DNA of 44,827 bases, taken from contig JAJISE010000012.1 of NCBI GenBank assembly GCA_022848865.1, positions 1 to 44,827 on the forward strand, written 5' to 3'. The number at the start of each line of letters is the position of its first letter. Positions within the stretch are counted from its first letter, which is position 1. Below, in pieces: positions 2,200 through 34,940 of the stretch. This DNA is from Candidatus Thermoplasmatota archaeon (lineage in GTDB: Archaea; Thermoplasmatota; Thermoplasmata; RBG-16-68-12; JAGMCJ01). The notes beneath the pieces were generated by a model. That model was not told the DNA's origin and made no database searches. It worked only from the letters and a program-made list of their open reading frames with translations. The position numbers were made by a program, and so were the translations under genes.

Positions 2200-2222
2200 C
2201 CTTCCGTGCGGGTTTCCTTCCG

Positions 2223-3224: not shown

Positions 3225-3225
3225 G

Positions 3226-3972: not shown

Positions 3973-4006
3973 CCACCGCGCGATTTCAAGTCGGCAGAGG
4001 CACTAC

Positions 4007-7437: not shown

Positions 7438-7449
7438 TGTACCAGGCCC

Positions 7450-9606
7450 CTACAGCATAGATGGTAACTTCAGAGCTGGATGGTCCTTCTCTGCGAGGAA
7501 CTCAAGCAGCTCCGCCGATTCCGTTGCGACAGTCTCGTCAGCGATCTTGTCCACGAAATCGGGAATGCCCAATTCCTCTGCTCTCTCTTTAAGTTTGTCG
7601 TACATCGCGTCCTTGAGCTCCTTCGGCATCCAGACGATCCTTTGGAACCCGCCATCCGCGCTTACGAACTTGTCCGACAGCAGGTAGTACCTTCCGACGC
7701 CTATGAATCCAGGCATCTGCAATCCGCCACCCACAGTTCCGGCGAGCGTGGAGAACTTCATCCCCAGGGGCGTCATCCCACCGTGCTCCCGGTTTACGAC
7801 GACGACGCCGTTCGCCTCGGGAACTATACCGACGATGCATTCGAAGCAGCCGCACGAGGTCATCGGGTCCTCCATCATGGTGTAGATGTTGAACTTGTCC
7901 AGCTTCCCGTGAGAGTGCTCGATTACCGCCTCGTTCACGCCCTCCCACTGGCCCTTGACCTCCTCTATAGTGGTCTTTTTGTCAATGGGCTGATTCGGAC
8001 CCGTCGGCGTAATCTGATTACTGGCCTTGGCGTCCAGCCAGTTGATGGCGCCGCAGAGCCCGAGCCTCTGGGGAGTGATGATGCACACGTGGTTCGGAGC
8101 GAAGCTCTGGCACAGCGTGCAGGTGTAGAACGTTTCCACGGCCTCGTCGGTCATTCCTCTCAGCCGCTCGTCCCTGTATTCGTAGGATTCCATCGCCTCC
8201 GGAAGGTGCTTCTCGATCTCCGCTGGGTCCGTCGTTATGGTCACCTGAACACGGCTCAACAGTCCGCCAAAGTCGTCGTGGAACTTGGCGTGCAGCACGT
8301 CGCCGAAGTGCTTGAACCTCAGGCCCTGGGCGGCACCGTCCTTGCTGAGCCTTATCCAAAGAAGGTTCCTCTGGCCCGTGTGCCACGCGCCCTCGGCGAA
8401 GTTGATGAACTGATGTATCCTCCTCTCCAGGACGGACTCGAAGTCCTTCTGCATATCCTTTCCGTAAACCTCGACCACGATCCCGAGCGGGCTGCCGCTC
8501 CCTTCCTCGAGCTCGTCGATGTCCTTCCCGATCATGGTTATCTTGCCGTCCTCCACCTCGTCCGCCTCTCGCATCTTCACCAGCTCGAAGACGGGCGTCT
8601 TGGAGGGTCCGCCGCATTCCACATACGTGTCCGGTCTCCTGACGGTCTCGCCCTCGAACGCGGGTCCGTACGGGACCGGGATGTCGACGGCTGCGAGCTT
8701 GACCTGCATGTCCCTTACTTCGATGGCCGTCTGAACCATCTGGTCGTAATCCTTCTGCACGATGTACTTGCCCGGGATCTCCTCTACATCCTGGTCCGTG
8801 ATCGTCGGGGAGCCGTTGAACATCACGGCGAACTCAGCTGCGACCTTGATCTGGTCAAGCGGGCCGAACTGGAACACTACGACCTTGGGTCTCGTCTTGA
8901 GGTATTTCAGCAGTCCCTCTCGGTCTCCGCGCTTTATCCCGCCGAAAGCGAGGGCGGCCCTGATGGCGAAGCTTAGGCCGTGTATCGCCTGCGTGAACTC
9001 GCCGAGGGGAAAGAGCATTATGTCAGTCCCCATCTTGATCCCCTGGTCCTCGAGCTGCCTGATTATGTCGAATGTCGCCATGAGCAGCATGCCCTTGTTC
9101 TGGAAGTCCCTCACTATCCTCGCTAGAGCCTCCGGGTCCTTCGCCTTTCCGATGAAGACTACAGCACCAGGGATGGTATCGTCGACGAATGCTATGCCCA
9201 GATTCCTGAGAACTGGGTCTCCAACGAAGCCGCAGTACTCCTGCCTTCCTGGCGGGGCCTCGTTCTCGAACGGCTTGTCGTTACCGATGTACCGAAGCGC
9301 CTCCACGATCTCGGCGGACCACATGGTGGCCTCGCCGGCGGTTAGCGCGTTCTCGAGAGTGGGCTCGGGCCTTATCTTCCCCCTGACCTCTCCGAGTAGA
9401 GCGGGAAGGTCACTGAGCGTCTTCACGGGCGTCGTCGTCCAGCCGTAGAAGCAGGGTAGCTCGTATCCCGTGTCCGGATACTCGATCGTCTGGTCAGGAC
9501 CGTATTTCCTCAGGGCGCGGTTCAGGAGAACGTCGGCGTAGCCGGTTGCCGTTATGGCTCCCGAGATCGCCATGCTGAACAGCTCTGTCTGCGTGACCTT
9601 GGTCAT
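7450..9606 (-). CDS. acsB: Acetyl-CoA synthase, bacterial-type AcsB
   Basis: Makes acetyl-CoA from CO, the corrinoid-bound methyl group and CoA. The A-cluster is complete: Cys496, 499, 508 and 518 can bind the [4Fe-4S] cube, and Cys585-Gly586-Cys587 in TSCGCFEC provide the distal nickel site. The protein has 718 aa and keeps the ~310-residue N-terminal CODH-binding domain that methanogen CdhC (about 470 aa) lacks, so it is the full-length bacterial architecture. Its ATG overlaps the acsA TGA (ATGA, 9603-9606). The last residues end in LKLPSML. Confidence 0.96.
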   Translation of the reverse strand: MTKVTQTELFSMAISGAITATGYADVLLNRALRKYGPDQTIEYPDTGYELPCFYGWTTTPVKTLSDLPALLGEVRGKIRPEPTLENALTAGEATMWSAEIVEALRYIGNDKPFENEAPPGRQEYCGFVGDPVLRNLGIAFVDDTIPGAVVFIGKAKDPEALARIVRDFQNKGMLLMATFDIIRQLEDQGIKMGTDIMLFPLGEFTQAIHGLSFAIRAALAFGGIKRGDREGLLKYLKTRPKVVVFQFGPLDQIKVAAEFAVMFNGSPTITDQDVEEIPGKYIVQKDYDQMVQTAIEVRDMQVKLAAVDIPVPYGPAFEGETVRRPDTYVECGGPSKTPVFELVKMREADEVEDGKITMIGKDIDELEEGSGSPLGIVVEVYGKDMQKDFESVLERRIHQFINFAEGAWHTGQRNLLWIRLSKDGAAQGLRFKHFGDVLHAKFHDDFGGLLSRVQVTITTDPAEIEKHLPEAMESYEYRDERLRGMTDEAVETFYTCTLCQSFAPNHVCIITPQRLGLCGAINWLDAKASNQITPTGPNQPIDKKTTIEEVKGQWEGVNEAVIEHSHGKLDKFNIYTMMEDPMTSCGCFECIVGIVPEANGVVVVNREHGGMTPLGMKFSTLAGTVGGGLQMPGFIGVGRYYLLSDKFVSADGGFQRIVWMPKELKDAMYDKLKERAEELGIPDFVDKIADETVATESAELLEFLAEKDHPALKLPSML

Positions 9607-11618
9607 TCCTCCTCACCTCCGTCCGCAGCGACCTCAGGTTTCTCCGCGAAAACATCCTCCTTCGTCTCGCCGGACCAATAGATGGTCTCCTTGTCCTCAC
9701 CGATGCCCAGTCTCCAGCGTCGATTCCTCACTATGTTGACCAGTTTCCTGGCAGCTTCGTCCGGGTCCTCCTCGAAGACGAAGTAGCCTCCGTAGACGTC
9801 GCGGGCTGTGTTCTCGGCGATTTGTACCACGAGGGGACTTCCATGTATGAACGGGAGCACCGCCACGTGGGTCGGCCAGCCAGTCGCCACCAGCCACGTC
9901 CCTATCACCACCGCCTTCTCGCTCATGTCCTCTGGCGCACTCGCGACGACGGGGAGGTCCTTGATATCCACTCCCATCTTGTTCGCGAGCATCGTCATGA
10001 AGTCATGTATTCGTGAGTTATCAACGCAGGACCCCATGTGCCAGACGGGCGGGAACGGGCCGTCGAAGCCAAACTTCTCTCCAAGCTCGGTGAGCACTTC
10101 CTTCAGACCCTCTCCCGCGAAGTCCTTGGTCGCCTTGGAGTTCGTGAGTCCTGCTCTGACGTAGGCGCCTGCGGCACAGCCTGTCGAGATGACAAGGATA
10201 TCGTTCTTGATGAACTCCTTCGCGAGGGTCAGATGATTTAGGTCATGGCAGGTCTTCACGTTGTTGCATCCAACGAGTGCTGCGAATCCCTGGATCTTTC
10301 CCTCATTGAGCTTGTCCGCAAGATACTGAAGAGGATCATCGGAGGCCTTGGACAGAATCTCCATGATCTGTTCCACGCTGAATCCGACACAGGAAGTCTC
10401 CTTCACATCCGGTATGTGAATGGCATTCTCATTCCTGTCCTTGTAGGCGTTAATGGCCAGAAGCAGTATCTTCCTTGCGTCCTCCTTCGCGCTCGCCGGA
10501 TTGAACTCTATGTGGATATCCCCTGGCTGCCTGCAGAGGTCGGACGTCGATATCAGCTTCGTGTGGAAGCAGTTCGCCCACATCCCAAGCGAGGGCAATA
10601 TACACTGATAGTCGATGACCATGGCATCAAGGACACCGGTCATGATGGCCAGCTCCTGGGAGGCGAAGTTGGTCGCAAGCGGAATCCCCCGCCGCATGAG
10701 CAGTTCGTTTCCGGTGCAACATATCCCTACGATGTTGATGCCGTCCGCTCCAACTTCCTCGGCGGCACCCTTCATCTCATCTGCGATATCGCACATAATC
10801 TCGCTCAGTACGGGGTTGTGACCGTTCATCGCGATGTTGACGGACTCCTTCTTGAGCACACCGAGGTTCGACTCAGTGAACGTGAGCATGGGAGTTCCGA
10901 ATAAGATGTCACTCAGGTCCGTGGATATGTGCTCACCAGCTAGATCGGCGAGAGCGCACTTTATCCCGCTGAAAATGAGGGGAACGGGATCTGCATCCAC
11001 ACCTATGTGGGTGCGATGCATGACCTCCACGACCGCGGCATCGATGGCATTGGGAAGGACACCATATCTGTCCAGCATCTCCAGCCTCTTGGAAGTTAGC
11101 GTGGTCCGCAACCAGGTGAGTGGTTCGTGCTCCACCCTTGAGAAGTCCTCGAAGGCCTCCCCGAGAAGCTCCTTCGTCAGCTCCATCGTGTCCTTTCCAT
11201 CTACATCTATTCCGACCCTCTGCGCGACGACTCTGAGCTTGTCCTCGTCCTTTATCGAGTAAGCGTCGGCCTTTCCGTCGATAAGGGCCTTCATGGTATG
11301 GGCGATGTGTCTTCCGTGGTCGGAGTGGGCAGAACATCCTGCCGCTATCTTCCTGAGAAGGTTCCTCGAGACGATCGTGTAGGCCGTCGCCCCGCATATG
11401 CCTCGCGAGGGTTCCTTGCCAAACGGATTGATCCTGCACGGTCCCTGAAGACATATCGTGCAGCATATTCCCAGCTCTCCGAAGCGGCACTGTGGTTGCA
11501 TCCTTTCGTAGCGGTCCCACATCGTTGTGGCATCCACGTCCGAATCGCGCACCTTCTCCAACATCTCCAGTGTCGCCGGGTCTACTGACTTCTGTTTCAT
11601 TTCAGATTCTTTAGCCAT
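9603..11618 (-). CDS. acsA: Carbon monoxide dehydrogenase catalytic subunit, AcsA/CooS type
   Basis: Interconverts CO and CO2 and feeds CO to AcsB. All cluster ligands can be found: Cys44 and Cys52 (shared D-cluster), Cys53, 56, 61 and 75 (B-cluster), and His267, Cys301, 339, 451, 481 and 531 (Ni-Fe C-cluster). AHSDHGRH near residue 98 supplies the proton-relay histidines. At 671 aa it has the bacterial AcsA/CooS length and lacks the additional ferredoxin-like domain of archaeal CdhA; no CdhB (epsilon) gene is nearby. The start has GGAGGAA four bases ahead of the ATG at 11618. It lies 10 nt downstream of the ferredoxin gene. Confidence 0.96.
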   Translation of the reverse strand: MAKESEMKQKSVDPATLEMLEKVRDSDVDATTMWDRYERMQPQCRFGELGICCTICLQGPCRINPFGKEPSRGICGATAYTIVSRNLLRKIAAGCSAHSDHGRHIAHTMKALIDGKADAYSIKDEDKLRVVAQRVGIDVDGKDTMELTKELLGEAFEDFSRVEHEPLTWLRTTLTSKRLEMLDRYGVLPNAIDAAVVEVMHRTHIGVDADPVPLIFSGIKCALADLAGEHISTDLSDILFGTPMLTFTESNLGVLKKESVNIAMNGHNPVLSEIMCDIADEMKGAAEEVGADGINIVGICCTGNELLMRRGIPLATNFASQELAIMTGVLDAMVIDYQCILPSLGMWANCFHTKLISTSDLCRQPGDIHIEFNPASAKEDARKILLLAINAYKDRNENAIHIPDVKETSCVGFSVEQIMEILSKASDDPLQYLADKLNEGKIQGFAALVGCNNVKTCHDLNHLTLAKEFIKNDILVISTGCAAGAYVRAGLTNSKATKDFAGEGLKEVLTELGEKFGFDGPFPPVWHMGSCVDNSRIHDFMTMLANKMGVDIKDLPVVASAPEDMSEKAVVIGTWLVATGWPTHVAVLPFIHGSPLVVQIAENTARDVYGGYFVFEEDPDEAARKLVNIVRNRRWRLGIGEDKETIYWSGETKEDVFAEKPEVAADGGEEE

Positions 11619-12459: not shown

Positions 12460-13251
12460 TCAGTCCGGGAGCCCCAGTTTGTCCCCGATCTCCTCGATTG
12501 CCGAGACGATCTCCGAGCAGTCCTCGTTGTCGATCGGCGGGACGTCCTTCATGTCAGCCTCGATTACGCACGGTTTGTAGGGAATCGACCCGACCAGCTC
12601 GATGCCTATGTCCGCGAGCTTCGAGCGGGTGAAGTCATCCTTTCCGAGCGATTTGTTGAGGACCGCGACGACCTTGCCGATACCCACGTCCTCCGCCAGC
12701 TTCCTTATCCTCTCCGCCGTCTCGATGGACTTCGTTCCGGGTTCCACCACGATGACAAGAATGTCCACGCCCTCCGCCGTGCCCCTGCCCAGATGCTCGA
12801 CGCCCGCCTCCATGTCCATTATGAGAACCTCGTCCCTGTCCAGAACGAGGTGCCTCAGGAGCCGCTTCAGCAACGCGTTCTCGGGGCAGAAGCATCCGCT
12901 CCCGCCCAGCTCGATGGTCCCCAGGACGATCAGTCTCACGCCGTCCTTCGCGATTGTGCCGTACGTGTCAACGAGGTCGTCCACCTTCGGGTTGAGCTTG
13001 AACATCTGTCCGTAGGAGGACCCTGGTCTCACGCCCGTCCTCTCTTCTATGAGGTCCAGCATGCGGGAGAGCGGGACCAGGTTCTTTCTCTCCTCCTCCG
13101 GTATCCCCACCGCGGACGCGAGGCTGGGGGACGGGTCGATGTCCACCGCCAATACTCTCATTCCTCGCCTCGCCAAAAGCCTTGCCAGGGTTCCTGCCAG
13201 CGTGGTCTTGCCTACACCGCCTTTCCCGGCGATTCCTATCCTCTGGGCCAT
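12460..13251 (-). CDS. cooC: CooC-type nickel-insertion ATPase (copy 2)
   Basis: A 263-aa ATPase with deviant Walker A GKGGVGKTT (residues 10-18), switch DIDPSPS, and the nickel-binding CxC at Cys120/122 (GSGCFCPE). The region around LIMDMEAGVEHLGRG matches CooC closely. It is encoded 7 nt downstream of cooT, itself a nickel chaperone, which makes maturation of the CODH C-cluster the likely job of this copy. It differs clearly in sequence from the copy at 3226-3972, so the two are not a recent duplication. Confidence 0.94.
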   Translation of the reverse strand: MAQRIGIAGKGGVGKTTLAGTLARLLARRGMRVLAVDIDPSPSLASAVGIPEEERKNLVPLSRMLDLIEERTGVRPGSSYGQMFKLNPKVDDLVDTYGTIAKDGVRLIVLGTIELGGSGCFCPENALLKRLLRHLVLDRDEVLIMDMEAGVEHLGRGTAEGVDILVIVVEPGTKSIETAERIRKLAEDVGIGKVVAVLNKSLGKDDFTRSKLADIGIELVGSIPYKPCVIEADMKDVPPIDNEDCSEIVSAIEEIGDKLGLPD

Positions 13252-15622: not shown

Positions 15623-16003
15623 CTACTCCTTCTTCCCAAGCCCCATGTCCTCGAGGTTCGCTCGAAGGACGTCACCCAATCCGACGGGCATCAGGGACAG
15701 CATACGAAGGATGCCTAACAGGGCAATGGTAATGCCGAAAAGCACCGTTGCAATGCCTACAAGCTTCAGCGTCAGGATCGTGGGCTTCATCTCCTCGATG
15801 GCCGCCAGATCCTTCGCCAGGTCGGAACCCGCCAGCGCGCTGTCCCTATCGGCCTTCGAGTTGTTCGCGAAGTAGTCCTCCTGCATGGGAACGAGCACCG
15901 TCTGCTCCATGATCAGGGCTGTCCAGGCCATGCCGACGCCGATGACGGCGAACAGTATGGCGATCAAGGTTACCTTTCTCACCATCTTGACCGGTGGGTC
16001 CAT
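15623..16003 (-). CDS. Two-helix membrane protein of unknown function
   Basis: A 126-aa protein with hydrophobic segments at residues ~10-30 (VTLIAILFAVIGVGMAW) and ~80-102 (LKLVGIATVLFGITIALLG). Between them is a ~45-residue acidic loop rich in Asp, Glu and Lys that would face outward if the N-terminus is inside. The tail ends DMGLGKKE. I do not recognise a family. It starts 11 nt after the stop of the zinc-finger gene and forms an operon with it, which recalls a cytosolic zinc-finger protein paired with a membrane partner. Confidence 0.75.
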   Translation of the reverse strand: MDPPVKMVRKVTLIAILFAVIGVGMAWTALIMEQTVLVPMQEDYFANNSKADRDSALAGSDLAKDLAAIEEMKPTILTLKLVGIATVLFGITIALLGILRMLSLMPVGLGDVLRANLEDMGLGKKE

Positions 16004-16014
16004 CTCGTCGCCTC

Positions 16015-16524
16015 CTACGCCAGCATCTGGCCGAACTTCTTCCGGACCATCTTTCGCTTGAGGAAGAAGTAGTCCTCCGTCGATTTCATGACGGCCTGCT
16101 TCTCCATCATCTTGCGCTCGTGCGGCCAGTCCTTCATGATCTCGGCGAAGACGGCCATGAGCGTGTTGCGGTGCTCCTTCGGGATTTCCATCATGATGTC
16201 GGTCCTAGCCTTCACGACCTTCATCCTGGCATCCTCGGAGATATCACCAAGAGCGTTGAGAAGATCGGCTATCGCTGCCTTCCGCTCCGCCTCGGGCATT
16301 CCCAGGAACTTGCGCATCCTCGAGCCCAGAAGTTGCTTTCTCTCGTCCAAGGGCTTGGAGGCCAAATCCTCCAGAAACCCCAGTTGCACATTCAGCTTCT
16401 CAGCGGCCTCCGCGTATTCCTTGCATTCGGGACACGCTGCGAAGTGCTCTTCGTAGGAACGGACGTCCCCACCAGCGCACTCCTCGCAGGCGCTGAGCAT
16501 ATCATCTAGTTGTTGTGATGTCAA
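16015..16524 (-). CDS. Zinc-finger protein resembling zf-HC2 / anti-sigma ZAS domains
   Basis: The first 40 residues carry a Cys/His cluster: CEEC, then EEHFAACPEC (His-x3-Cys-x2-Cys), the pattern of zinc-binding anti-sigma (zf-HC2) domains. The rest (to residue ~169) is a helical, Lys/Glu-rich domain without membrane segments. The start is a TTG at 16524: GGAGGTG (16530-16536) lies exactly 5 nt upstream, whereas an in-frame ATG at 16542 would put the Shine-Dalgarno site inside the gene. Archaea have no sigma factors, so a role as a general sensor or adaptor is more likely. Function unknown. Confidence 0.75.
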   Translation of the reverse strand: MTSQQLDDMLSACEECAGGDVRSYEEHFAACPECKEYAEAAEKLNVQLGFLEDLASKPLDERKQLLGSRMRKFLGMPEAERKAAIADLLNALGDISEDARMKVVKARTDIMMEIPKEHRNTLMAVFAEIMKDWPHERKMMEKQAVMKSTEDYFFLKRKMVRKKFGQMLA

Positions 16525-16655
16525 AATTACACCTCCGATCATAGTCTTACACTCGGGGGCATATCAACTGTCGTTTGTCCCCCGTGAGGGTGACAGCTGC
16601 AAAAGAATAATGTTATGAGCGACTATCACTTGGCAATAGCAGGAGAAGTGGTCGC

Positions 16656-19600
16656 ATGGCCAAGAGAACATACGCGGATCTGGTCTTCAACGCTCGCCTC
16701 GAGGATATCGACAAGGAGGTCGCTGACCTCATAGGCTTCGAGGAGGAGAGACAGGATAGGAAGCTCATAATGATCGCATCCGAGAGCTATTGTCCCAGCC
16801 CGGTGAGGGAGGCGGTCGCGTCCGCCTTCGCGAACCTCTACGCCGAGGGGCATCCATCGGTCAGGATGGACAAGGAGGACAGGGGGCTGGCAACGGACTA
16901 CGAGCACCAGATGACGCACCAGCGCAGGTTCGCGGACAGGAGATACTACAAGGGCTGTGAGTACGTCAACATCATGGAGAACCTGGCGGAGAAGAGACTG
17001 GCGGAGATCTTCGCGACGGACGAGATATCCGCGGACGAGATCTACACGAACGTCCAGCCGCTCTCGGGCGCTATCGCCAACAACGCCGTCTACAACGCCT
17101 TCCTCGAGCCCGGTGACACGGTCATGGGGATGGCGCTGAACGCGGGCGGGCATCTCACGCACGGGAGCGAGGTGAACCGCTCCGGGCGGTACTACAACGT
17201 AATCCCCTACTACCCGGACGACAGGACCGGCAAGTTCAATTTCAAGGAGCTGAAGAGGCTCGCCAAGGAGCACAGACCGAAGCTTGTCATCGCGGGGTAC
17301 AGCGCCTACCCGTGGAACATCAACTGGAAGAAGTTCAGGGAGGTCGCCGACGCGGCTGGCGGGGCGATTCTCCTCGCGGACATGGCGCACGTCGCAGGCC
17401 TCATCGTCGGCGGGCAGTTCAACAACCCCATTGGATACGCGGACGTGGTCATGTTCACGACACAGAAGTCAATCTGCGGTCCCCGCGGGGCGGTCCTCAT
17501 GACGACGGACAAGGAGAAGGCGAAGGCGCTGGACCGGGCCGTCTTCCCGGGCGAGCAGAGCGGGCCGCACCTGAACAACGTCATCGCGAAGGCCGTGTGC
17601 TTCGAGATAGCCAAGACGCCCGAGTTCAGGGAGCTGACGAGGAGGATCGTGGAGAACGCGAAGCATCTGGTGAGCTCGTTCAAGAAGCTCGGTCTTACCG
17701 TCGCCTACGGCGGGACGGACAGCCACCTGCTTCTGATCGACCTGAGGGACATCAAGACGAAGACCGGCTACCCGCTCACGGGCGAAATCTCGGCCCGCAT
17801 CATGGAGCTCTGTGGAATCGTCATCAACAAGAACACGATCCCGTACGATGAGAATGCCATACACCCGAGCGCGATACGCTTCGGCACGACTTGGGTCACC
17901 CAGCGTGGGTTCGGAAAGAGTCAAATGGAGAAGATCGCCGCCTTGTCTCACAGGATACTGACGAACATCCAGCCCTTCCACTACGTCGGACGGGAGAAGG
18001 ACGTAGGCAGGGGGAAGATCGAGCTCAGGATACTCGAAGAGGTCAAGCGGGAGGTCGACGAGCTTGTCCGGGAGGCGAGGAGCGAGGTGCCCGCGCCGAG
18101 GCATGGATATCCGCACTATGGCACCGGCGAAGGTGAGGAGTTCGAGAGTCCTCTTGAGGAGATTCACAAGGAGTCCCGCGCCAAGATGAGGAGGGTCGGC
18201 GGGTGGAGGATTCCTGCGGTCTATCACACGCTGAAGAAGGACATCGAGAAGACCAAGGACTCCGCCGGAGTCTTGGACGCGTCTGCCTACGGACTCCTAG
18301 AAGTTCGTGGCTGGCGGGCGAGGCCATTCCTCGACGAGGTCTGCACCGGCCCCATTCGCGACATGGAAGTGGGAACGAGCCAGAGGACTCTCGTCCTGGA
18401 CAAGGACGGCAGGATAATCGACGACGTGGTCGTGATGAGAGGGCCGCCTGACAGGGTCGGAAGGGACCGCTACATCGTCGTGACCAACCCCCAGAACGCA
18501 GACAGAATCAAGCTCTGGTTCCGAGCACTGTCCGATTCCTACGTAATCTTCGATGACGATCTCTTCAGAAAGGTCCAAGGACCCGTCATGGTCAAAGACC
18601 TCAGGCGGGAGGGCAAGACGAGCATCTTGCTCCACGGTCACAGCAGCCTGAGGGTTCTGAGGAAACTGGCTCCAGAACTCAAGAAGTGGAGCGGCAAAGG
18701 TCTCGTGAAGGTTTCGATGGACAAGAACCGGGTCGTGATCGGATGGGCCGGGTTCCACGAGAAGTGTGAGAGGTTCCACATCATCGTTGACAGGAAGAAG
18801 AGCGTGCACGTCTGGAAAGCGATTCTGGACGCGGGCAAGAGAATGGGGATTGGCCCGATCGGATATGACGCAGAACTGGATACGCGGAAGAGGCGCTACC
18901 TCCCGATTTACGGCAGGAGGAAGACACACGCGAGTGAGATAGTGCGCAGGCGGAAGGATTTCATGGACATCTCGAAACCCTATTTCGTGGGTCAAAGGGA
19001 TTTCCTGCGGAAGAGGTCCCGCAAGAAGATGTACATGTACGAGCCAGAGGACATTCCCCTGAGGAGGAGCTGCCTGTACGAAGAGCACCTCAAGCTGGCC
19101 AAAAGGACCTCCCTGAAGCCCTTCGCGGGATGGGAGATGCCCATCCTCTACACGAGCATCGCCGACGAGCACAAGGCGGTCCGGGAGACCGCTGGGCTCT
19201 TCGATGTGAGCCACATGGGCGTCATCAGCGTTCAGGGGAGAGACGCCACCGACTTTCTGGATGCCGTAACGACGAACTACGTGAGATGGCTCAAGCCCTG
19301 CGAATCACATTATTCCTACGTGCTGGACATCGACGGGCGCGTTCTCGATGACATATTCATCTACAAGATCGGCGAGGAGGACTACATGGTCGTCGCCAAC
19401 GCCGTCAACGCAGAGAAGGTACTTGCTTGGCTTCAGGCCGTCAGCACCGGTGAGTACCTCCTCAGCAGGGAACACCCGTCCGTGGACGTCAGCGGAGACG
19501 TGAGCGTGAGGGACCTGAAAGACCCCTCGAGCGGGAGGGACCGGCGGGTGGACATCGCGCTCCAAGGACCCAGTTCCCGCGAGACAATCATGGAGCTGAT

Positions 19601-20303
19601 TAAGGACGAAAGGCTAAGGCGGAGGTTCTGGTCGCTGGCAAGGTTCGAGCTCATGAAGCTGAGGCTGGGGAACGTTCCGCTGATAATCTCCCGCTCGGGA
19701 TATACCGGCGAGGAGTATGGCTACGAGCTCTTCGTGCACCCGAAGAATGCTCCGAAGCTGTGGAATCTGATCCTGGAGAAGGGAAAGCCCTACGGCGTGA
19801 AGCCAGCGGGCCTGGGAGCGAGGGACTCCACCCGGACGGAGGCGGGATTCCCGCTGTGGGGGAACGAGCTCGCGGGCGAGCACGATCTCTTCCCGACAGA
19901 GGCGGGATACGGGACCTTCGTCAAGCTGCACAAGTCCTTTTTCGTCGGTAGGCAGAGAGCGGTCGAGAAGGCCAGGAACCGCGAGAGAGAAATCATCCGC
20001 TACCGGATGAAGAATAAGGGAATTCGCGTCGTCAGGCCTGGTGCCTTTGTCGTGAGCGATCAGGACAGGATCATCGGGGAGGTGACGAGCAGCGTCGTCA
20101 TCGAGGGAAGGCAGCTTGGCTTGGCTCTCGTGCCGAGAGAGAATGCGATTGAGGACGCAGAGATCGGGATAGTCATCCCGCCAAGGGGAGTGAAAGCCTC
20201 AGGGAAGGAGATACAGGGACTCGTGGACTCAGGCTCCGCGACGGTCGAAAGGGCGAGGACACTCCCCAGACTGCTGATCGCGGAAGAGGGTCAAGAAGAG
20301 TAG
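16656..20303 (+). CDS. Fusion protein: serine hydroxymethyltransferase + two GcvT-like domains
   Basis: One open frame of 1215 codons. Residues ~1-475 are SHMT: IASESY, HGSEVNRSG, DMAHVAGLI (Asp242, His245), PLP lysine Lys271 in TTQKSICGPRG (TTHK in most SHMTs), and Arg408 in IRFGTTWVTQRG. About 25 residues are inserted between YAEGHP and RYYKGCEYVN. Residues ~500-800 form a diverged GcvT (aminomethyltransferase) domain with RVGGWRIPAVYHT, AGVLDASAYG and IDDVVV. Residues ~808-1205 form a second, well-conserved GcvT domain: FAGWEMPILYTSI, AGLFDVSHMG, RVLDDIFIY, SRSGYTGEEYGYE, GLGARDSTRTEAGFPLWG. Both ends of the C1 chemistry of serine and glycine are therefore on one chain. No gcvH or gcvP is present. 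The GcvT parts could instead be folate-dependent demethylases. Start: AGGAGAAG about 7 nt upstream of ATG. Confidence 0.93.
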   Translation: MAKRTYADLVFNARLEDIDKEVADLIGFEEERQDRKLIMIASESYCPSPVREAVASAFANLYAEGHPSVRMDKEDRGLATDYEHQMTHQRRFADRRYYKGCEYVNIMENLAEKRLAEIFATDEISADEIYTNVQPLSGAIANNAVYNAFLEPGDTVMGMALNAGGHLTHGSEVNRSGRYYNVIPYYPDDRTGKFNFKELKRLAKEHRPKLVIAGYSAYPWNINWKKFREVADAAGGAILLADMAHVAGLIVGGQFNNPIGYADVVMFTTQKSICGPRGAVLMTTDKEKAKALDRAVFPGEQSGPHLNNVIAKAVCFEIAKTPEFRELTRRIVENAKHLVSSFKKLGLTVAYGGTDSHLLLIDLRDIKTKTGYPLTGEISARIMELCGIVINKNTIPYDENAIHPSAIRFGTTWVTQRGFGKSQMEKIAALSHRILTNIQPFHYVGREKDVGRGKIELRILEEVKREVDELVREARSEVPAPRHGYPHYGTGEGEEFESPLEEIHKESRAKMRRVGGWRIPAVYHTLKKDIEKTKDSAGVLDASAYGLLEVRGWRARPFLDEVCTGPIRDMEVGTSQRTLVLDKDGRIIDDVVVMRGPPDRVGRDRYIVVTNPQNADRIKLWFRALSDSYVIFDDDLFRKVQGPVMVKDLRREGKTSILLHGHSSLRVLRKLAPELKKWSGKGLVKVSMDKNRVVIGWAGFHEKCERFHIIVDRKKSVHVWKAILDAGKRMGIGPIGYDAELDTRKRRYLPIYGRRKTHASEIVRRRKDFMDISKPYFVGQRDFLRKRSRKKMYMYEPEDIPLRRSCLYEEHLKLAKRTSLKPFAGWEMPILYTSIADEHKAVRETAGLFDVSHMGVISVQGRDATDFLDAVTTNYVRWLKPCESHYSYVLDIDGRVLDDIFIYKIGEEDYMVVANAVNAEKVLAWLQAVSTGEYLLSREHPSVDVSGDVSVRDLKDPSSGRDRRVDIALQGPSSRETIMELIKDERLRRRFWSLARFELMKLRLGNVPLIISRSGYTGEEYGYELFVHPKNAPKLWNLILEKGKPYGVKPAGLGARDSTRTEAGFPLWGNELAGEHDLFPTEAGYGTFVKLHKSFFVGRQRAVEKARNREREIIRYRMKNKGIRVVRPGAFVVSDQDRIIGEVTSSVVIEGRQLGLALVPRENAIEDAEIGIVIPPRGVKASGKEIQGLVDSGSATVERARTLPRLLIAEEGQEE

Positions 20304-22551: not shown

Positions 22552-24951
22552 CTACGGATATTCGATGGTCGGTGCCTCGGGCAGGACCAAGGTGTGGTCG
22601 CCCGTGCCTTCGTTGTGGTTGTTGTTGATGTTGTCCAGGGTCTCCTGGAAGGACGTGAAGTCGTAGTCCTCGTCCTCGTTTACCAGCTTCCAGATTGCCT
22701 CGTCGTAGACTTCCTGGACGGTCCATCCGCTGTAGTCATCGCCTTCGAAGATGTAGACCGCGTCGGCCATGTCCGTGCCGAATTTCAGGAGGTTCATGTG
22801 CAGCGCCAACAGCTGGGCCCTGAACAGACTCCTGCATGTTCCCGCACAGTTGGCGGGATAGTCTCCAGCTCCGTCGAAGATCCACTTGGCCTCGTCGTCG
22901 TTGTCAATCTCGTAGTCACCATCGGGTGTCTGCACATCGACAGCCATCGGATAGTCCGGTAGCAGATCGTATGCCGGATCCCTCGGCGGGGCGCCGTGTC
23001 CCGTGTGGGTCTTCCAATAGCCCCACGTCAGTCCGCCCGTGAACTCGACCACGTTGCCGAAGTCAGCGTCGTCCATGAAGAAGCCGCTCGTGCCGTCGAA
23101 CATGTAGTGTCCATCGCCCGGATACGTGTTGGCCCAGACGTAGTACTCGCCTGGAGCGGTTGGCATGATCTCCTTGACCTCGTAGCCTCCCGGACCCAGG
23201 TCGTAGAAGCAGTACTCACCGTTGGCGTCTGTGTAGACGGTCTCGACGAGCGCACCATCCTTCCAGAGCTCTATCATGAAGCCCTCGATGATTTCCTCGC
23301 CCTCGTCCATCACGCCGTCCTTGTCCACGTCGTACCACTTGGCTCCGCAGACCTCACCGAGCTCGAAGTTGTAGAAGTCGAGTGTCTGTGCCTGTCCGCT
23401 CACAGCTGTGAACGTGAACTCTGTCGGCGCAGTTGCCATCCAGCCTTCCATCTCCGCCTCGGCGACCTTGTATTCGCCGCCCGCACAGACCTCGAACGCG
23501 TAGTACCCGCTCGCGTCCGTCGTTGTGGTTGCGACCTCGACCCAAACACCGGCGTCCATCTTGTAGAGGGTTATCGTCCAGCCCTCGAGGCCGGTATCTC
23601 CCTCGTCCCAGTCGCCGTCACCGTTCATGTCCTCGTACTTGTATCCAGAGACGGAGAAGCACTGGAAGTTGTAGAAGTCGAACGGTCCCTGGCCAACTCC
23701 GCTAGCTGCTGTGAAGCTGAAGCTCGCATCGCTCGTGTGGACCCATCCGTCCCTGTCCTCCTCGGAGACTCTGTAGTCGCCCGGCTCGGTCGCGGTGAAC
23801 GAGTAGTACCCGCTCGCGTCTGTTGTGGTTGTAGCGTAGGTCGACCAAGTTGCGCCACCATCAGTGGATCTCTCAAGGGTTATCTCCCAACCCTCGATTC
23901 CCGGTTCGCCTACATCCCAGTCGCCGTCCCCGTTCAGGTCGTTGTACTTGTGTCCCCAGACATCGAACTCGTTGAAGTTCCCAAAGGCGACGCTGTATGT
24001 CAGCGAGACCTTGTAGTCAACGGAGACAGTCACGGGGTTTGCTGGCTGAGCAGGCTCACCATCTATGATTGTCGCCGTGATGCTCCAGCCGCTCTGGACT
24101 TCCTCCTCGATTATGTAGTCGCCGTCAACCGAGGCGTCTATCACGACGCAACCGTCCTCGCCCGTGTAGAGTGTGTTTACGACTCCCAGTGGGTCTGTCA
24201 CATGCATCGCCCAACCTGGTATGCCGAGCTCGCCCTCGTCCCACAGGCCGTTCCCGTTCATGTCCTCGAACTTGCAGACCTCTATCTCAGGGGTCGGCTT
24301 CTCTGGACCCTTGGACTTTGCCTTGAAGTTGTCCGTCTTCGAGTGAGCGGGGACAAAACCGTGGTAGTTCCCAGGTGCGTATCCGGGATCAAGATCGTTC
24401 GGATCACCAAGGTAGAACTCTGTAGGCGTTGCCCAGACCTTGTATACTCCCCCTCTATTGGGAGTGTCCTTGTAGGGCATCAGCTGGATCGTCAGCGAGT
24501 CTGCCCAAAGGTTCCATCCGAGATCGTGCAATCCGTACTCCCAGCCCTCCATGTAGCAGTCGAAGGTTTCTGTCTTGCCGTTCCCGTTGCCCTTCGTAAT
24601 CGTGTAGGTTCGGCCTGCTGAGAGGTACTCCGCGATTACACCGTCCTCCACTCTGAACTCTCGGCAGATCGCCGGATCCTCAGATAGCAGTTTCTTGCCC
24701 GACGGATCCGTTACTTGAAAGTAGTAGTTCCCGTCGGGAAGACCCGCCGCACCTGGCGGGGCATGGGGCCCAGGGCCGCCGTTGAGGTAAACGTCCCTCT
24801 TGTCAGCGTAGTGGTTTGCATTCACCATCGTTCCGTCTTCCAGGCTCGTGAATATCGCGCCGGACAATGGTGCCCCAGCGCTCGCGGTCTGGAAGAGAAG
24901 CGCACTGATTGACAGTGCTATTCCTATAGCTAAGAGAAATCTCTTCTTCGT
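22552..24951 (-). CDS. Secreted multidomain SdrD/Cna-B-like protein, probable ACG start
   Basis: The standard frame opens at TTG 24867, but 28 more in-frame residues upstream form a textbook signal peptide: KKR, then FLLAIGIALSISALLF, then cleavage after ASA. No ATG, GTG or TTG precedes them; ACG at 24951-24949 does, with GGAGGTG exactly 5 nt before it, the spacing seen at other starts here. The mature protein has an N-terminal domain (to ~residue 220), then four prealbumin/SdrD-B-like repeats marked by DxNGDGxWDxGE calcium-binding loops near 240, 340, 440 and 540, and a C-terminal WGYWKTH domain. No C-terminal membrane anchor is seen. Likely a cell-surface or S-layer-associated adhesin; the terminator follows directly. 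Family function is adhesion or structure by analogy only. Confidence 0.8.
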   Translation of the reverse strand, partial: TKKRFLLAIGIALSISALLFQTASAGAPLSGAIFTSLEDGTMVNANHYADKRDVYLNGGPGPHAPPGAAGLPDGNYYFQVTDPSGKKLLSEDPAICREFRVEDGVIAEYLSAGRTYTITKGNGNGKTETFDCYMEGWEYGLHDLGWNLWADSLTIQLMPYKDTPNRGGVYKVWATPTEFYLGDPNDLDPGYAPGNYHGFVPAHSKTDNFKAKSKGPEKPTPEIEVCKFEDMNGNGLWDEGELGIPGWAMHVTDPLGVVNTLYTGEDGCVVIDASVDGDYIIEEEVQSGWSITATIIDGEPAQPANPVTVSVDYKVSLTYSVAFGNFNEFDVWGHKYNDLNGDGDWDVGEPGIEGWEITLERSTDGGATWSTYATTTTDASGYYSFTATEPGDYRVSEEDRDGWVHTSDASFSFTAASGVGQGPFDFYNFQCFSVSGYKYEDMNGDGDWDEGDTGLEGWTITLYKMDAGVWVEVATTTTDASGYYAFEVCAGGEYKVAEAEMEGWMATAPTEFTFTAVSGQAQTLDFYNFELGEVCGAKWYDVDKDGVMDEGEEIIEGFMIELWKDGALVETVYTDANGEYCFYDLGPGGYEVKEIMPTAPGEYYVWANTYPGDGHYMFDGTSGFFMDDADFGNVVEFTGGLTWGYWKTHTGHGAPPRDPAYDLLPDYPMAVDVQTPDGDYEIDNDDEAKWIFDGAGDYPANCAGTCRSLFRAQLLALHMNLLKFGTDMADAVYIFEGDDYSGWTVQEVYDEAIWKLVNEDEDYDFTSFQETLDNINNNHNEGTGDHTLVLPEAPTIEYP

Positions 24952-24965
24952 ACAGCCACCTCCTC

Positions 24966-24995
24966 TTAGGGAGACCCTCCTTAGGGAAACCCTCC
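24966..24995 (-). repeat. Two tandem 15-bp repeats in the leader of the SdrD-like gene
   Basis: TTAGGGAGACCCTCC and TTAGGGAAACCCTCC lie head to tail, differing at one base. On the minus strand they place GGAGGGT twice upstream of the real GGAGGTG, and each unit is partly self-complementary (GGG/CCC). They lie within the predicted 5' leader. Confidence 0.8.
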
Positions 24996-25024
24996 TCTGT
25001 GGTCATCCAGATTAATTGGTGGCG

Positions 25025-25033
25025 TATTTATAA
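25025..25033 (-). promoter_or_regulatory. TATA box for the SdrD-like gene
   Basis: Minus strand TTATAAATA. A start ~25 nt downstream gives a leader of about 50 nt that contains the tandem repeats and the Shine-Dalgarno site. Confidence 0.6.
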
Positions 25034-25129
25034 CTTATCGGAAATGAGGCTGTCCACGTACGTCAATAGCATTCAACGACATGACTTCATTCCCAACAGC
25101 GGGGAGAACCACTCGAAGTTACCACCGTT

Positions 25130-28100
25130 CTACCGCTTCTTCCTGTAGAGAACCGCACCGAGCGGGGAGAGAATACCGAGCAGCACGAGTGAAAAGAGCA
25201 TAGCAGATATCTCTGGTTGTCGTGCATCGATAGCTCTCGACGCTTGATCGGGATCCGGGACCGATGTACCCTCATGTTCTGGCGGGAGGGATTTGGTGCC
25301 CTCATTGCCAGCCGAGTCCTTCGGGTCCTGCTGATTCTCCGCTCGATTCATCACGGTCCATGTTCCCGACATAGAGGCCTCGATCCAGTAGCCATTCCCC
25401 GCTGTCATCGTCTCGATGTCGTTCGCGACCCTGAGGAAGTAAGGTGGTGAGAACGCGTTGAAGATCTCCACTCTGATCGCCCCCGAATCGGATTTCAGGT
25501 CCGCGATCGTGTAGTCAGTATCAAATGACGGAAAGCCAACAAGGTTCCATCCCTTCGCAAGGTTCACGAGGGTAGTGGTAGGAACCCTTCCTGCCACGGT
25601 CAGATTGGAGCGGCTCACGACCTCGACCCAGATGCCCATGTTCGTGCCGATCTGTTCCAACGTGCAGTAGTTCTTCTGCGTGGAGTAGCTCTTCCAGCTT
25701 CCTGCATAGTAGTAGCGCGCGGTGTCGAAACTCAGCGTCCTCAAAACAGCATCAACGGAATCATCCTTCTGCTCCAGCGGGATGGAGACCAGCTTCCAGC
25801 CTGGCATCAGGTTCTTAACGTACTTCCCCGCCTGTGCTGAGTACGGCGCCGAGTTGTTCGCGAAGTCCACCGCTCTTACCTGGTAGAAGTAGTAGCTGGA
25901 GTCGCCTTCGCCCCCGTTCGCATGAACGAAGAAGTCCGTGTCGGCCGGTGCTGAGCCGAGAAGCACGTAGCTAGTCCCTGTCGGATCATATGTCGTTCCG
26001 TAGTACACGTCGTACCGCTCGACACCAGATTCGAGGTCCGTGGCGAAGGTCCAAGTGATGTTGACATCCCGCCATCCGACACCTTCAAGGACTGCCCACA
26101 CGTCGTCCAGTGTTGCAGGCGGGCTCGCATCGATGTAGAACGGTCCCACATGAAGGGCGTCGGGATCCCAGTTGCCCGCCACATCCCTTGTCCTCGCGTG
26201 GAAGTACCAATCGCTACCTGTGCCGAGGGGCGGGCTTGTCGTGCTGGGGCTCGTCGAGTCCACGCTCGAGTCTGGGAGAGCCGCAGGCGACTGTGTCCAA
26301 TCGAACGAGTAGCCATAGACGCCGCTCGTCGCGTCCCACGCACCGGTCCAGCTGAAGTCTATCGTATCGTCACTCGACCAAGTCCCCACACTATGGCTCG
26401 ATGTGAAGCCGTCGGGATTGTGTGGGTCAGTGGCGTCCTTGCTGAAGGTGCCAGTCCTCGTCATCTCGAAGTTGCCGACGTTGTCCACAGAGTAGTAATC
26501 CACCGTATAGTTACCGTCAATTACGACATCCGGCGGAGAGAAGTACACCGTCCATGGTGCACCGTTGATCCTGTAAGTCGTCACATCCACGCCGCTGTGA
26601 TTGTCTGAGGGTGTTAGAGCGATACTGACATCGGACAAGAACCAACCGAAGTCACCGACCGTTCCAGTGAATGCATGAGTGGTCCAGGGATCCTCAACGT
26701 CGATGTAGAACGGTCCCACATGATAGGCGTCGGGAGCCCAGTTCCCGGCGTTGTCCACCGTCCTGATGTGGAAATGCCAGTTGTCGCCCGGACCCAGTGG
26801 GAAGCTCGTTGTGTTGGTCAGGACCGATGTTATCACACTCATGGGGAGAGTGTCGGAAAACCTCGACCACGTGTAAGAGTACCCGTAGACGCCGCTCAAA
26901 GGATCGGAAGCCCCGGCCCATTCGATGAATATCCTGTCATCGCCAGACCATACGAATTTCTGATGACTGGAGCTGTAGCTGTCCGGATTGTCTGGCGGGG
27001 CGGTATCAACGTAGAATGGTCCCACGTGGTAGGCGCCCACCGCCCAGTTGCCAGCTTTGTCCATGGTTCTTATGTGGACATACCAGCTGTTGCCATCTGT
27101 CAGGGCGTAGCTCGTTGACTCGAAGTCCGCAGTATCCATGGTCGGCCCGGGGACGGAAATCGGACTCATTGTCCATTCTACCGCGAACCCGCCGATTCCG
27201 CTGATATTGTCCCAGGCTCCTGACCACCTTATCCAGACCGTATCGTCATTTGACCATCCCATCAGACTGTGCGAACTGGTGTAGCTGTTGGGATTCATAG
27301 GCAATGAGTAGTCAACCGTCACTCTGGCGGAATCTTCGGTGAAGCTGGCTCCGAAGTACGCCCTCGCGTATATGGTGTGCCAACCCTCCAGCAAGGACGA
27401 CGTGTCCCACTCGTAGTACCAGTCGGCGGTCCCGTTGGCGAGTATCCAGGAGCTGTCGTCAACCTTCACGTAGACCTGATCGATTGCGCCATGGCCGAGC
27501 AATATGACATCGTCCAAGTACGCACCTTCCCTTGTGCCGCTCGTATCGCTGTGGAAGTGGAATCCGATCTCGGTGGCGGTCGTCGGGATCGAGACAGACG
27601 AGCCCATCCATCCGTTGCTGTTTCCAGTATGCGGATCCACGTAATGCCATGTCCCGTCGTAGTATGTCACATAGACGTAGTCAACGCCGTCCTCGGAGTC
27701 CAACCAGTAGTTGTACGCGAGGGTGGCAGAGTCGTGCCCGCTCAGGTCGACGTCATGCTGCATGTAGGCGTCCATGCCATTGTCGTAAAGCCGCCTAATG
27801 TCGTTGGGGATTCCGCCAGTGACCTCGACGTCATCGATCCGCATGTACTGGTCGTACGTGCCGTGATAGAGGAACGCGAGATGGACGGAGGGGTCTCCCG
27901 CCGCGGCGGAGAGGTCGATGTACTGAATCCCCTGCGTCGTGGACGTCCAAGTCTGAAGTCCAGTGAACGCAGGGTAGTTCGCGCTTGTTGAGTATAGCAC
28001 GCTCGCGTACTCGTCCCCGTCACCATGCTGATAGTCCAAATAGAACGTGAGGTTGAGCGAGGACTGAGAGCTGGCATCGAAGCCCGTGCTCATCTGGAGC

Positions 28101-29938
28101 CATTCCGTGATGTCAGTACCCGCTCCTGCGCCGGAGCTGTCGCACTCCGCGACGTAGTCGCTTCCCGATTCCAGCTTCATCTCCCATGGGTGCGAGTCCG
28201 GTCCGACGCTGAGGGTCGTCCAATCCGGCGGCATGAGCCCGCCGTTGTCGAAATCCTCGGTCTGAACGGTCTCGAAGTATTCTCCGAATGCCGCGGACCA
28301 CACGCTCGTCACACCATCGTAGTACGTGGTGTTCGTCAAGCCCCAGTAGTCCTCACCTCCAGAACTCGTGCTGTCCCCCACGACCCAGGTGCCGGGCCAC
28401 GAGCCCTCGAAGTCCTCTCTGAGAACGACCGTCCACATCGGATTCGTCGCCAGTCCCGAGATGTTCACGAGCCCGTTGATGTTGTCGCCATCAAGAGGGT
28501 TCAACATCCTCATGCCTGGATAGAAGGAGATCGACACAGTCCCCGGCGTGTCCTCGGGCGTGTCAGGGGATTCGTCCGATACACGCGTGTAGACGCCTGG
28601 ACTGTAACCGCCCTCGTAAAGCTCAATCTTGTAGGATGTTATCGTCGAGTAGTCTGTCCCCGCGCCGACGCTGAGGAAGAAGAGGTTGTGCCCGTTCCTC
28701 CACTCGTTCTTGAAGTCGGTGTAGTCCAACGCCATGAAGGCCGGGAAGTCGTGGTTCCCTCCCCTCCACCAGGGTGATCTGGTGGCGGCGGGGTCGCTGA
28801 TCGGACCGATGCCCAGAGTCACGGGAGCGTTCCTGCCGCCCTGGGGGTTCATGTTCACGATGCCGAGCAGGGACGGCTCGTAGTCGATCCTGTCGCGGAA
28901 TCTGATGGCTATGTTCGGAAGCTCGTCCGCGGCCTCGTAGGTCATGTAGTAGTAACCGTTGCCTCCCCAAGCAGAGCCCCAGCCAGCGCCCCAGGAATTG
29001 ACGATCTTGAAGGCGCCGATCTCGCCGTCGTCCTCCTTCGTGTCGTTGAATCCCACGATTGTGTTCGCATGGTTGGGATTGCCCGTCACATGCTCCGTGG
29101 AGTTGATAGTGTCGTCGCCGCTTCCGAGTCCGTTGCCGTAGTTGCCTGCATCCAGGACTATCGAGATGGCGTATCCCTCGGCGACCCAAGCCTTTATGAC
29201 GTCCGTGTTGGACGGGTCCGTGGACTGATAATCCAGCCCGCGGTACTCGGGCGCGCTCCTCCAAGCGTCCTCATCGCCCCAAGAGACAGCGTCGGCAGCG
29301 TTGTAGGGCATCTCCGCCCAGATGGAATTGCCAACAGTCTTGATGACCTCCATGTTTCCCGACGGCCAGGAGCCGGAGTCGAAGCCCGAGTTTGCCTTGT
29401 TGTACACGAAGGCCGGGCTCATAAGATGGTTGTTGTTCCCCGTGGACGCATCCGTCCAGTTCAGGTCCTTCGCCTGGTTATAGCCGTTTATGTAGTATGC
29501 GACGGACCAGGCCGAACAGGAGCCCTGGCTCTGCTGGCTTCGAACTTTCGGGAAGTAGGGCTCCTGCGAGTGGTCCACCATCGGCTCGAGCATCGGCTCG
29601 TTGACACCGTCGGTCCACGATGTGCCGATCATGTTCTGCCATTCAGCCTCCGTTGGCGGGGCGAGTCCGGTGCCGAGCCCGTCGAACAGGATGTTGTAGT
29701 TCTTCTGCGGGTCCCGCACGCCGAATTCCGCCTTGAGCCTCTCGACCTCCTCCGCGGTGATGACGTGAGACTCGTACTGGAACATCGAGTCCGTCTGGAC
29801 ATCCGTGAGGTCTTTCGCGGGAGCTTCCGGATCGAGCGTGGCAAGCTGCCCGCCTGCAAACGCAAGGGCCGATGTCGCCAGGAGTATGATAGCCAAAATC
29901 CAGGTCTGGATGGTAGATCCGCTCTCGTTCCGTGACAT
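25130..29938 (-). CDS. Membrane-anchored papain-like (C1A) peptidase with Ig-like repeats
   Basis: 1602 aa. Residues 11-29 are a signal or N-terminal membrane helix (TWILAIILLATSALAFA). The C1A catalytic domain covers ~90-360: Gln138 and Cys141 in SQGSCSAWS, His290 in NHANTIVGF and Asn314 in KIVNSWGAGWG. A jelly-roll/MAM-like region follows (~500-850). Three ~100-residue repeats start near 880, 985 and 1160; each ends in a WY/FHxRTxDxAGNW...HVGPFY motif. Two GWKLVSIP/GWNLVGFP modules (~1390 and 1470) precede a low-complexity linker and a C-terminal helix (EISAMLFSLVLLGIL) with basic tail YRKKR. It is likely displayed on the cell surface to digest external protein. GGAG lies 7 nt before ATG. 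Confidence 0.9.
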   Translation of the reverse strand: MSRNESGSTIQTWILAIILLATSALAFAGGQLATLDPEAPAKDLTDVQTDSMFQYESHVITAEEVERLKAEFGVRDPQKNYNILFDGLGTGLAPPTEAEWQNMIGTSWTDGVNEPMLEPMVDHSQEPYFPKVRSQQSQGSCSAWSVAYYINGYNQAKDLNWTDASTGNNNHLMSPAFVYNKANSGFDSGSWPSGNMEVIKTVGNSIWAEMPYNAADAVSWGDEDAWRSAPEYRGLDYQSTDPSNTDVIKAWVAEGYAISIVLDAGNYGNGLGSGDDTINSTEHVTGNPNHANTIVGFNDTKEDDGEIGAFKIVNSWGAGWGSAWGGNGYYYMTYEAADELPNIAIRFRDRIDYEPSLLGIVNMNPQGGRNAPVTLGIGPISDPAATRSPWWRGGNHDFPAFMALDYTDFKNEWRNGHNLFFLSVGAGTDYSTITSYKIELYEGGYSPGVYTRVSDESPDTPEDTPGTVSISFYPGMRMLNPLDGDNINGLVNISGLATNPMWTVVLREDFEGSWPGTWVVGDSTSSGGEDYWGLTNTTYYDGVTSVWSAAFGEYFETVQTEDFDNGGLMPPDWTTLSVGPDSHPWEMKLESGSDYVAECDSSGAGAGTDITEWLQMSTGFDASSQSSLNLTFYLDYQHGDGDEYASVLYSTSANYPAFTGLQTWTSTTQGIQYIDLSAAAGDPSVHLAFLYHGTYDQYMRIDDVEVTGGIPNDIRRLYDNGMDAYMQHDVDLSGHDSATLAYNYWLDSEDGVDYVYVTYYDGTWHYVDPHTGNSNGWMGSSVSIPTTATEIGFHFHSDTSGTREGAYLDDVILLGHGAIDQVYVKVDDSSWILANGTADWYYEWDTSSLLEGWHTIYARAYFGASFTEDSARVTVDYSLPMNPNSYTSSHSLMGWSNDDTVWIRWSGAWDNISGIGGFAVEWTMSPISVPGPTMDTADFESTSYALTDGNSWYVHIRTMDKAGNWAVGAYHVGPFYVDTAPPDNPDSYSSSHQKFVWSGDDRIFIEWAGASDPLSGVYGYSYTWSRFSDTLPMSVITSVLTNTTSFPLGPGDNWHFHIRTVDNAGNWAPDAYHVGPFYIDVEDPWTTHAFTGTVGDFGWFLSDVSIALTPSDNHSGVDVTTYRINGAPWTVYFSPPDVVIDGNYTVDYYSVDNVGNFEMTRTGTFSKDATDPHNPDGFTSSHSVGTWSSDDTIDFSWTGAWDATSGVYGYSFDWTQSPAALPDSSVDSTSPSTTSPPLGTGSDWYFHARTRDVAGNWDPDALHVGPFYIDASPPATLDDVWAVLEGVGWRDVNITWTFATDLESGVERYDVYYGTTYDPTGTSYVLLGSAPADTDFFVHANGGEGDSSYYFYQVRAVDFANNSAPYSAQAGKYVKNLMPGWKLVSIPLEQKDDSVDAVLRTLSFDTARYYYAGSWKSYSTQKNYCTLEQIGTNMGIWVEVVSRSNLTVAGRVPTTTLVNLAKGWNLVGFPSFDTDYTIADLKSDSGAIRVEIFNAFSPPYFLRVANDIETMTAGNGYWIEASMSGTWTVMNRAENQQDPKDSAGNEGTKSLPPEHEGTSVPDPDQASRAIDARQPEISAMLFSLVLLGILSPLGAVLYRKKR

Positions 29939-31305: not shown

Positions 31306-31329
31306 ATTAGGTACCTAGTGGGTGAACGG

Positions 31330-31749: not shown

Positions 31750-31753
31750 TCGG

Positions 31754-33501: not shown

Positions 33502-33513
33502 GCGGGGGAAAGA

Positions 33514-33753: not shown

Positions 33754-33769
33754 TCCGCGGGGGAATGCC

Positions 33770-34930: not shown

Positions 34931-34940
34931 GGGTGATAGA

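Follow-up and report, generated by a model that had tools for sequence, protein, structure and literature searches.

Serine hydroxymethyltransferase (SHMT) and the glycine cleavage system (GCS) function as unfused systems in most organisms, and both component enzymes are textbook proteins. The two reactions are linked by methylene-tetrahydrofolate (methylene-THF), and in the couples described from plant mitochondria and from E. coli in vitro (PMC7227101) they are carried out by separate proteins. GcvT-fold folate domains fused to an enzyme that feeds them one-carbon (C1) units are known from dimethylglycine dehydrogenase (DMGDH)/dimethylglycine oxidase (DMGO), the sarcosine oxidase alpha subunit and trimethylamine N-oxide (TMAO) demethylase; there an oxidase or a demethylase is the partner, and the H-protein plays no role. 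Here we describe a gene in which the same two methylene-THF-linked enzymes are joined in a single chain, with SHMT as the fusion partner and two GcvT copies. It lies at positions 16656-20303 (forward strand; ATG at 16656, TAG at 20303) of a 44,827-nucleotide stretch of a Candidatus Thermoplasmatota archaeon (contig JAJISE010000012.1, assembly GCA_022848865.1), the whole of which we call the window, and encodes 1215 amino acids in the order SHMT, GT1, GT2. We found no description of this fusion in open-access full text, a search outside which most subscription papers lie.

We propose that the protein is very probably a bifunctional enzyme in which GT2 serves as the glycine-cleavage T-protein, the fused SHMT is the second catalyst and GT1 is an inactive adaptor. 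What is observed in favor of this reading is an intact frame, sequence conservation, retained active-site residues and a single clade for each domain, together with the lack of another T-protein where P- and H-proteins are present, a recurrent gcv neighborhood, and the presence of formate-THF ligase (FTHFS) combined with the absence of methenyl-tetrahydromethanopterin cyclohydrolase (Mch). The 1215-residue frame has no internal stops. Using profiles built in this analysis, we place the domain borders at residues 8-470 for SHMT (16677-18065), 497-795 for GT1 (18144-19040) and 802-1165 for GT2 (19059-20150), all on the forward strand like every feature of the fusion given below. Pfam finds PF00464 (SHMT; 378.7 bits, cut-off 27) and two GCV_T stretches that together reach 339 bits. 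In a scan of the genome, the GCV_T matches of GT2 and GT1 score 240.1 and 106.7 bits (cut-off 25.6). The NCBIfam models PRK00011 (SHMT; 419.8, cut-off 335) and TIGR00528 (gcvT; 291.3, cut-off 235.85, a sum over the two GcvT domains) also match the whole protein. The preliminary description of this DNA, made from the sequence without database searches, had read one SHMT and two GcvT-like domains in one frame, and the open reading frame, Pfam and NCBIfam all uphold it. A predicted model of the whole chain (residues 1-1175, monomer) is confident (pLDDT 91.3, pTM 0.88), which argues for a defined packing of the domains.

The SHMT domain retains the residues expected of an active enzyme of the bacterial GlyA type (PF00464; E. 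coli 1dfo, B. stearothermophilus 1kkj), with which it shares the fold, the pyridoxal phosphate (PLP) lysine, the folate-site Glu and Tyr, the substrate Arg and about 40% identity. Scored alone it reaches 424.6 bits on PRK00011, and its predicted fold superimposes on E. coli SHMT 1dfo with a TM-score of 0.93 by target length. K271 (the PLP lysine, codon 17466-17468), H166, D242, H245 and R408 are conserved in all 78 fused SHMTs compared, and Y62 and E64 in 77 of the 78 (one gap). In contrast to bacterial GlyA, the fused SHMT has a 26-residue insertion in the loop bearing the folate-site residues (residues 69-94; 16860-16937, between YAEG-P and RRYYKG). It also has an FPGEQ-G-H motif and the residues Gln416 and Trp413 that characterize the fusion clade, and 740 extra residues follow it. 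The insertion, which follows Tyr62/Glu64, is found in essentially all fusions and is missing from nine of ten stand-alone bacterial SHMTs. Lys271, Arg408, the TTQK motif and an insertion of about 25 residues had all been pointed out before, and each is borne out by the alignment. TTQK was considered as a functional mark of the fusion family and rejected, as only six of the 78 have it and the other 72 have TTHK. A second, long-branched SHMT relative of archaeal type is encoded elsewhere in the same genome (L117:367-1635, contig C34; 251 bits on PRK00011, under the cut-off of 335).

GT2 has the features of a T-protein. It retains D898, D899, GYTGE (1015-1019), E1024, GARD (1054-1057), R1060 and E1062, and D898, D899, GYTG, E1024, R1056, D1057, R1060 and E1062 are conserved in 71 of 71 GT2 sequences, in agreement with the earlier view of this domain as well conserved. 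D898 aligns with the catalytic Asp of the E. coli enzyme, D97, which is the position altered in the mutant structure PDB 3a8k. GT2 resembles GcvT (PF01571, TIGR00528; T. maritima 1woo, E. coli 3a8i) in its catalytic Asp, folate-site residues, domain order and genomic partners P and H; unlike GcvT, it is tied to SHMT via a dead GcvT copy, and its N-terminus is not free. Its sequence matches are strongest to T. maritima T-protein (1woo, E 1.8e-58), ahead of DMGO (2.7e-22), DmdA (3.9e-13) and LigM (5.8e-10). A split relative of the same clade (L125) scores 286.1 on TIGR00528, above the cut-off.

The fusion is also the only T-protein that its genome encodes: the genome has just two GCV_T matches, both within this gene. 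GcvPA (598 bits, cut-off 364) and GcvPB (684, cut-off 441) lie side by side on contig C18, with GcvH encoded on contig C32 (150 bits on TIGR00527, cut-off 116). The preliminary description had stated that no gcvP or gcvH is nearby, which is true of the window and misleading for the genome; its hint that the fusion acts apart from a glycine cleavage system is not supported. With P and H encoded elsewhere and the fusion as sole T-protein, an H-protein-dependent T activity would be expected rather than folate-dependent demethylation. The same pattern recurs in relatives. Among 61 related genomes of the class, the 12 that carry the fusion are without any other GCV_T protein; GcvP occurs in every one of them and GcvH in 10, while the remaining 49 have a stand-alone GcvT in 43 cases and none in six. 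Fifty further fusion-bearing genomes show no other GCV_T over the cut-off in 38 cases, 33 of these having both GDC-P and GCV_H. A separate SHMT over the cut-off is missing in 35 of the 50, and 26 have no SHMT or GCV_T protein besides the fusion. Genes for GcvH and/or GcvP are found within 7 kb of the fusion at 11 loci; for instance, the Aerophobetes locus L034 has the order fusion-gcvH-gcvPA-gcvPB on one strand.

Several observations weigh against our proposal. GT2 scored alone falls slightly under both T-protein cut-offs (TIGR00528 218.9, cut-off 235.85; PRK00389 285.3, cut-off 300), and in its own genome the gcv genes are not adjacent to the fusion. In three genomes (G098, G103 and G104, the only such cases among the candidates tested) the fusion is accompanied by a stand-alone protein that passes the TIGR00528 cut-off, and two others (G065 and G105, assemblies of unstated completeness) bear the fusion yet show neither P nor H. 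The genome counts are phylogenetically non-independent, the 12 falling in four families, and metagenome-assembled genomes (MAGs) vary in completeness. Lastly, in the Chloroflexota loci L096, L098 and L099 SHMT and a GT1 remnant form one gene, and in the L098 genome the fusion-clade GcvT (L125) is a separate gene on another contig; these split loci show that the parts need not be covalently joined there.

The narrow shortfall of GT2 on the T-protein models, the existence of demethylases among GcvT-fold proteins and the absence of gcvP and gcvH from the window itself would all fit a different identity, in which GT2 is an H-protein-independent folate methyl- or methylenetransferase comparable to the demethylases DmdA, LigM and DesA or to the DMGDH/sarcosine oxidase domain. 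We consider this improbable. The closest sequence matches of GT2 are T-proteins, it is the sole GCV_T protein where P and H are encoded, it is located in gcv gene clusters, and the fusion has no oxidase or demethylase partner domain. A GcvT-type demethylase is further disfavored by the specific models, all of which score GT2 below their cut-offs (DmdA 86.5 bits against 410, DesA 58.4 against 800, LigM 48.3 against 580).

The identity of the C1 carrier can be approached from gene content. FTHFS is encoded in the genome itself and in most relatives, and Mch was found in none of the 61 related genomes by a search that was positive in three archaeal control genomes. Because FTHFS is present and Mch absent, the carrier is likely to be THF; tetrahydromethanopterin (H4MPT) was considered as the carrier and is disfavored on the same grounds.

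GT1 has followed a different course from GT2. Its predicted fold is that of a T-protein (pLDDT 91), the closest PDB entry being T. maritima T-protein 1woo (TM 0.77, 22% identity), but most T-protein active-site residues have been lost in the alignment: GYTGE, GARD and the equivalents of Glu1024 and E1062 are absent. The best-conserved stretch is LSDSYVIFD (residues 625-633; 18528-18554), in which D627 is invariant and D633 nearly so; D635 and G642, shortly beyond it, are invariant as well. GT1 evolves faster than GT2, and in many relatives it is trimmed to about 100 residues around W-RALSDGYV-FD-GPV. Where GT2 is a separate gene, the LSDSYVIFD region remains with SHMT, and in the three split Chloroflexota loci the SHMT chain ends just past the LSDGYV-FD motif, suggesting that the GT1 remnant is functionally part of SHMT. 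Judging from these sequence features, GT1 is probably an inactive, structural adaptor domain. The preliminary description had likewise noted the loss of the GLGARD-type motif, which we verified, and had thought this copy diverged and perhaps structural, a view that the missing active-site residues support.

GT1 could instead work as a second, functional binding site, for folate or for the H-protein, and might for instance dock lipoyl-H-protein or hold THF between the active sites. In favor of such a role, the full T-protein fold and an Asp-Asp pair are retained in the protein studied here, and GT1 occurs in essentially all fusions that reach that part of the chain. Against it, the equivalents of GYTGE, E1024, R1056 and E1062 are mostly gone, many relatives keep only the short LSDGYV-FD segment, and the domain changes faster than GT2. 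We therefore regard a binding role as unlikely and favor GT1 as an adaptor.

The fusion is not confined to this organism. It is found in all five genomes of the genus: G001, G003 and G004 have complete copies (86-98% identity), and the one in G002 runs into a contig end. Among named records, the same gene comes closest in Thermoplasmata archaeon RS_14_3 (98%) and Candidatus Thermoplasmatota archaeon bin211 (97%), and other families of the order and class have it at 45-55% identity. In a wider survey, GTDB species genomes were scanned with two short peptide patterns, yielding 113 relatives, 80 of them retained for analysis. With few exceptions these are the same fusion, and the SHMT-GT1-GT2 order occurs in about 70 genomes beyond the genus; since the sensitivity of the patterns is limited this distribution is a lower bound. 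The MAGs are labeled, according to their record titles, as Thermoplasmatota, Planctomycetota, Deltaproteobacteria/Myxococcota, Chloroflexota, Spirochaetota, Aerophobetes, Poribacteria, Bacillota, Bdellovibrio and others. It had been allowed earlier that homologs might always be split into separate genes; apart from the three Chloroflexota loci, nearly all are fused. Given that the source is itself a MAG, an assembly or frameshift artefact has to be weighed, and its probability is negligible: the complete copies in three genomes of the genus exclude an assembly error, and the same architecture, with conserved linkers and insertion, recurs across the class and in many phyla. A separate observation concerns Thermoplasmata archaeon CSMAG_1472, where an 865-residue frame (L093:6069-8664) joins a fusion-type SHMT and a short GT1 remnant to a sigma54-activator-like AAA segment; this may be a chimeric contig.

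Each part of the fusion forms its own group in phylogenetic trees. The fused SHMTs are one clade relative to 19 stand-alone SHMTs (support 100/100), GT2 together with one split relative is one clade relative to stand-alone GcvTs (support 100/100), and the GT1 copies form one group (support 100, long branches). The simplest reading of these trees is a single origin followed by transfer between phyla. The split GcvT L125 was nested among fused Chloroflexota in a quick tree; careful trees did not fix its place (p-AU 0.58 for the fused copies as one clade), and the split in Chloroflexota may be either ancestral or secondary.

The scheme that follows is an inference as regards both enzyme activities, the direction of flux and any direct hand-over of carbon. 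The P-protein (GcvPA/GcvPB) would charge the lipoyl arm of the H-protein with the aminomethyl group from glycine. GT2 would then pass the carbon from aminomethyl-lipoyl-H-protein to THF, giving methylene-THF and ammonia, or run in reverse, and the PLP-dependent SHMT domain would combine methylene-THF with a second glycine to make serine, or produce methylene-THF from serine. The GT1 adaptor, probably bound to the SHMT part, would position the catalytic domains. A single chain would fix the ratio of SHMT to T-protein and would allow labile methylene-THF to be made and used side by side. All steps being reversible, the net direction in an organism with carbon monoxide dehydrogenase/acetyl-CoA synthase (CODH/ACS) and FTHFS may be synthesis or breakdown of glycine and serine. 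In the E. coli GCS in vitro, methylene-THF decomposes to formaldehyde, and the addition of SHMT abolished this loss (PMC7227101). Since SHMT removes the formaldehyde leak in that system, coupling it to GCS is plausibly advantageous.

Whether carbon is channeled is a further matter. Channeling between the T-protein and SHMT sites is plausible. A more specific version, that methylene-THF formed by GT2 moves on, unreleased, to the SHMT site within the same chain or dimer, with the insertion and the dead GcvT domain as a bridge and the whole acting as one glycine-to-serine enzyme, is possible and we put it forward tentatively. The fusion may instead do no more than keep two independent enzymes in equal amounts and in one place, with methylene-THF diffusing freely between them, a view for which the chances seem to us evenly balanced. 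The split Chloroflexota versions and the stand-alone GcvT L125 are in line with it, and so are the soluble intermediate common to both reactions and the success of unfused systems elsewhere. However, two features suggest specific contacts between the domains: an insertion at the SHMT folate loop that is peculiar to the fusions, and a third, inactive domain that essentially all of them retain. The confident whole-chain model points the same way.

The question of direct transfer of methylene-THF between GCS and SHMT matters for photorespiration, for one-carbon metabolism and for engineered reductive glycine pathways. Here a natural and widespread chain is obliged to do both jobs, so the channeling question can be put to a direct test, and engineers are offered a coupled enzyme that nature has already built. 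A gap in annotation is settled as well: MAGs that seem to lack gcvT can hold their T-protein inside a protein named SHMT. The points of most interest are the wide distribution, the replacement of the stand-alone GcvT and the conservation of a dead third domain.

Upstream of the fusion, on the reverse strand, are the CODH/ACS genes for AcsC, AcsD, AcsB and CooS (5141-11618), given here as context only. A CooC/MinD-type ATPase (12460-13251, reverse strand) is on this divergent CODH/ACS side, and a homolog is found beside the fusion also in L027, L028 and L060. The preliminary description had linked folate C1 chemistry to the adjacent CODH/ACS locus. That link is backed to some extent by two bacterial MAGs with CODH/ACS and FolD genes as divergent neighbors of the fusion (L053, methyltransferase-acsC-acsB-cooS-acsD-cooC-folD; L085, acsD-cooC-folD), but these are a minority of loci.

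Other features of the window deserve mention. In this Thermoplasmatota archaeon the wider CODH/ACS cluster (313-11618) encodes bacterial-type CooS, AcsB, AcsC and AcsD, along with an AcsV-like corrinoid activator. Within it, a DUF166 protein (4007-5140) has a weak match to the seleno-protein DfsP (66 bits, cut-off 200). Two predicted short open reading frames beside the fusion (15623-16542) have no Pfam match and are 97-100% conserved in L023 and L024. Further along, positions 22552-29938 encode a 771-residue protein with SdrD_B/prealbumin-like repeats and a 1602-residue protein with a papain-type peptidase domain. Lastly, positions 31318-35396 encode a set for oxygen defense and Fe-S cluster assembly: a Fur regulator, a flavodiiron protein, rubrerythrin and, after them, NifS and NifU.

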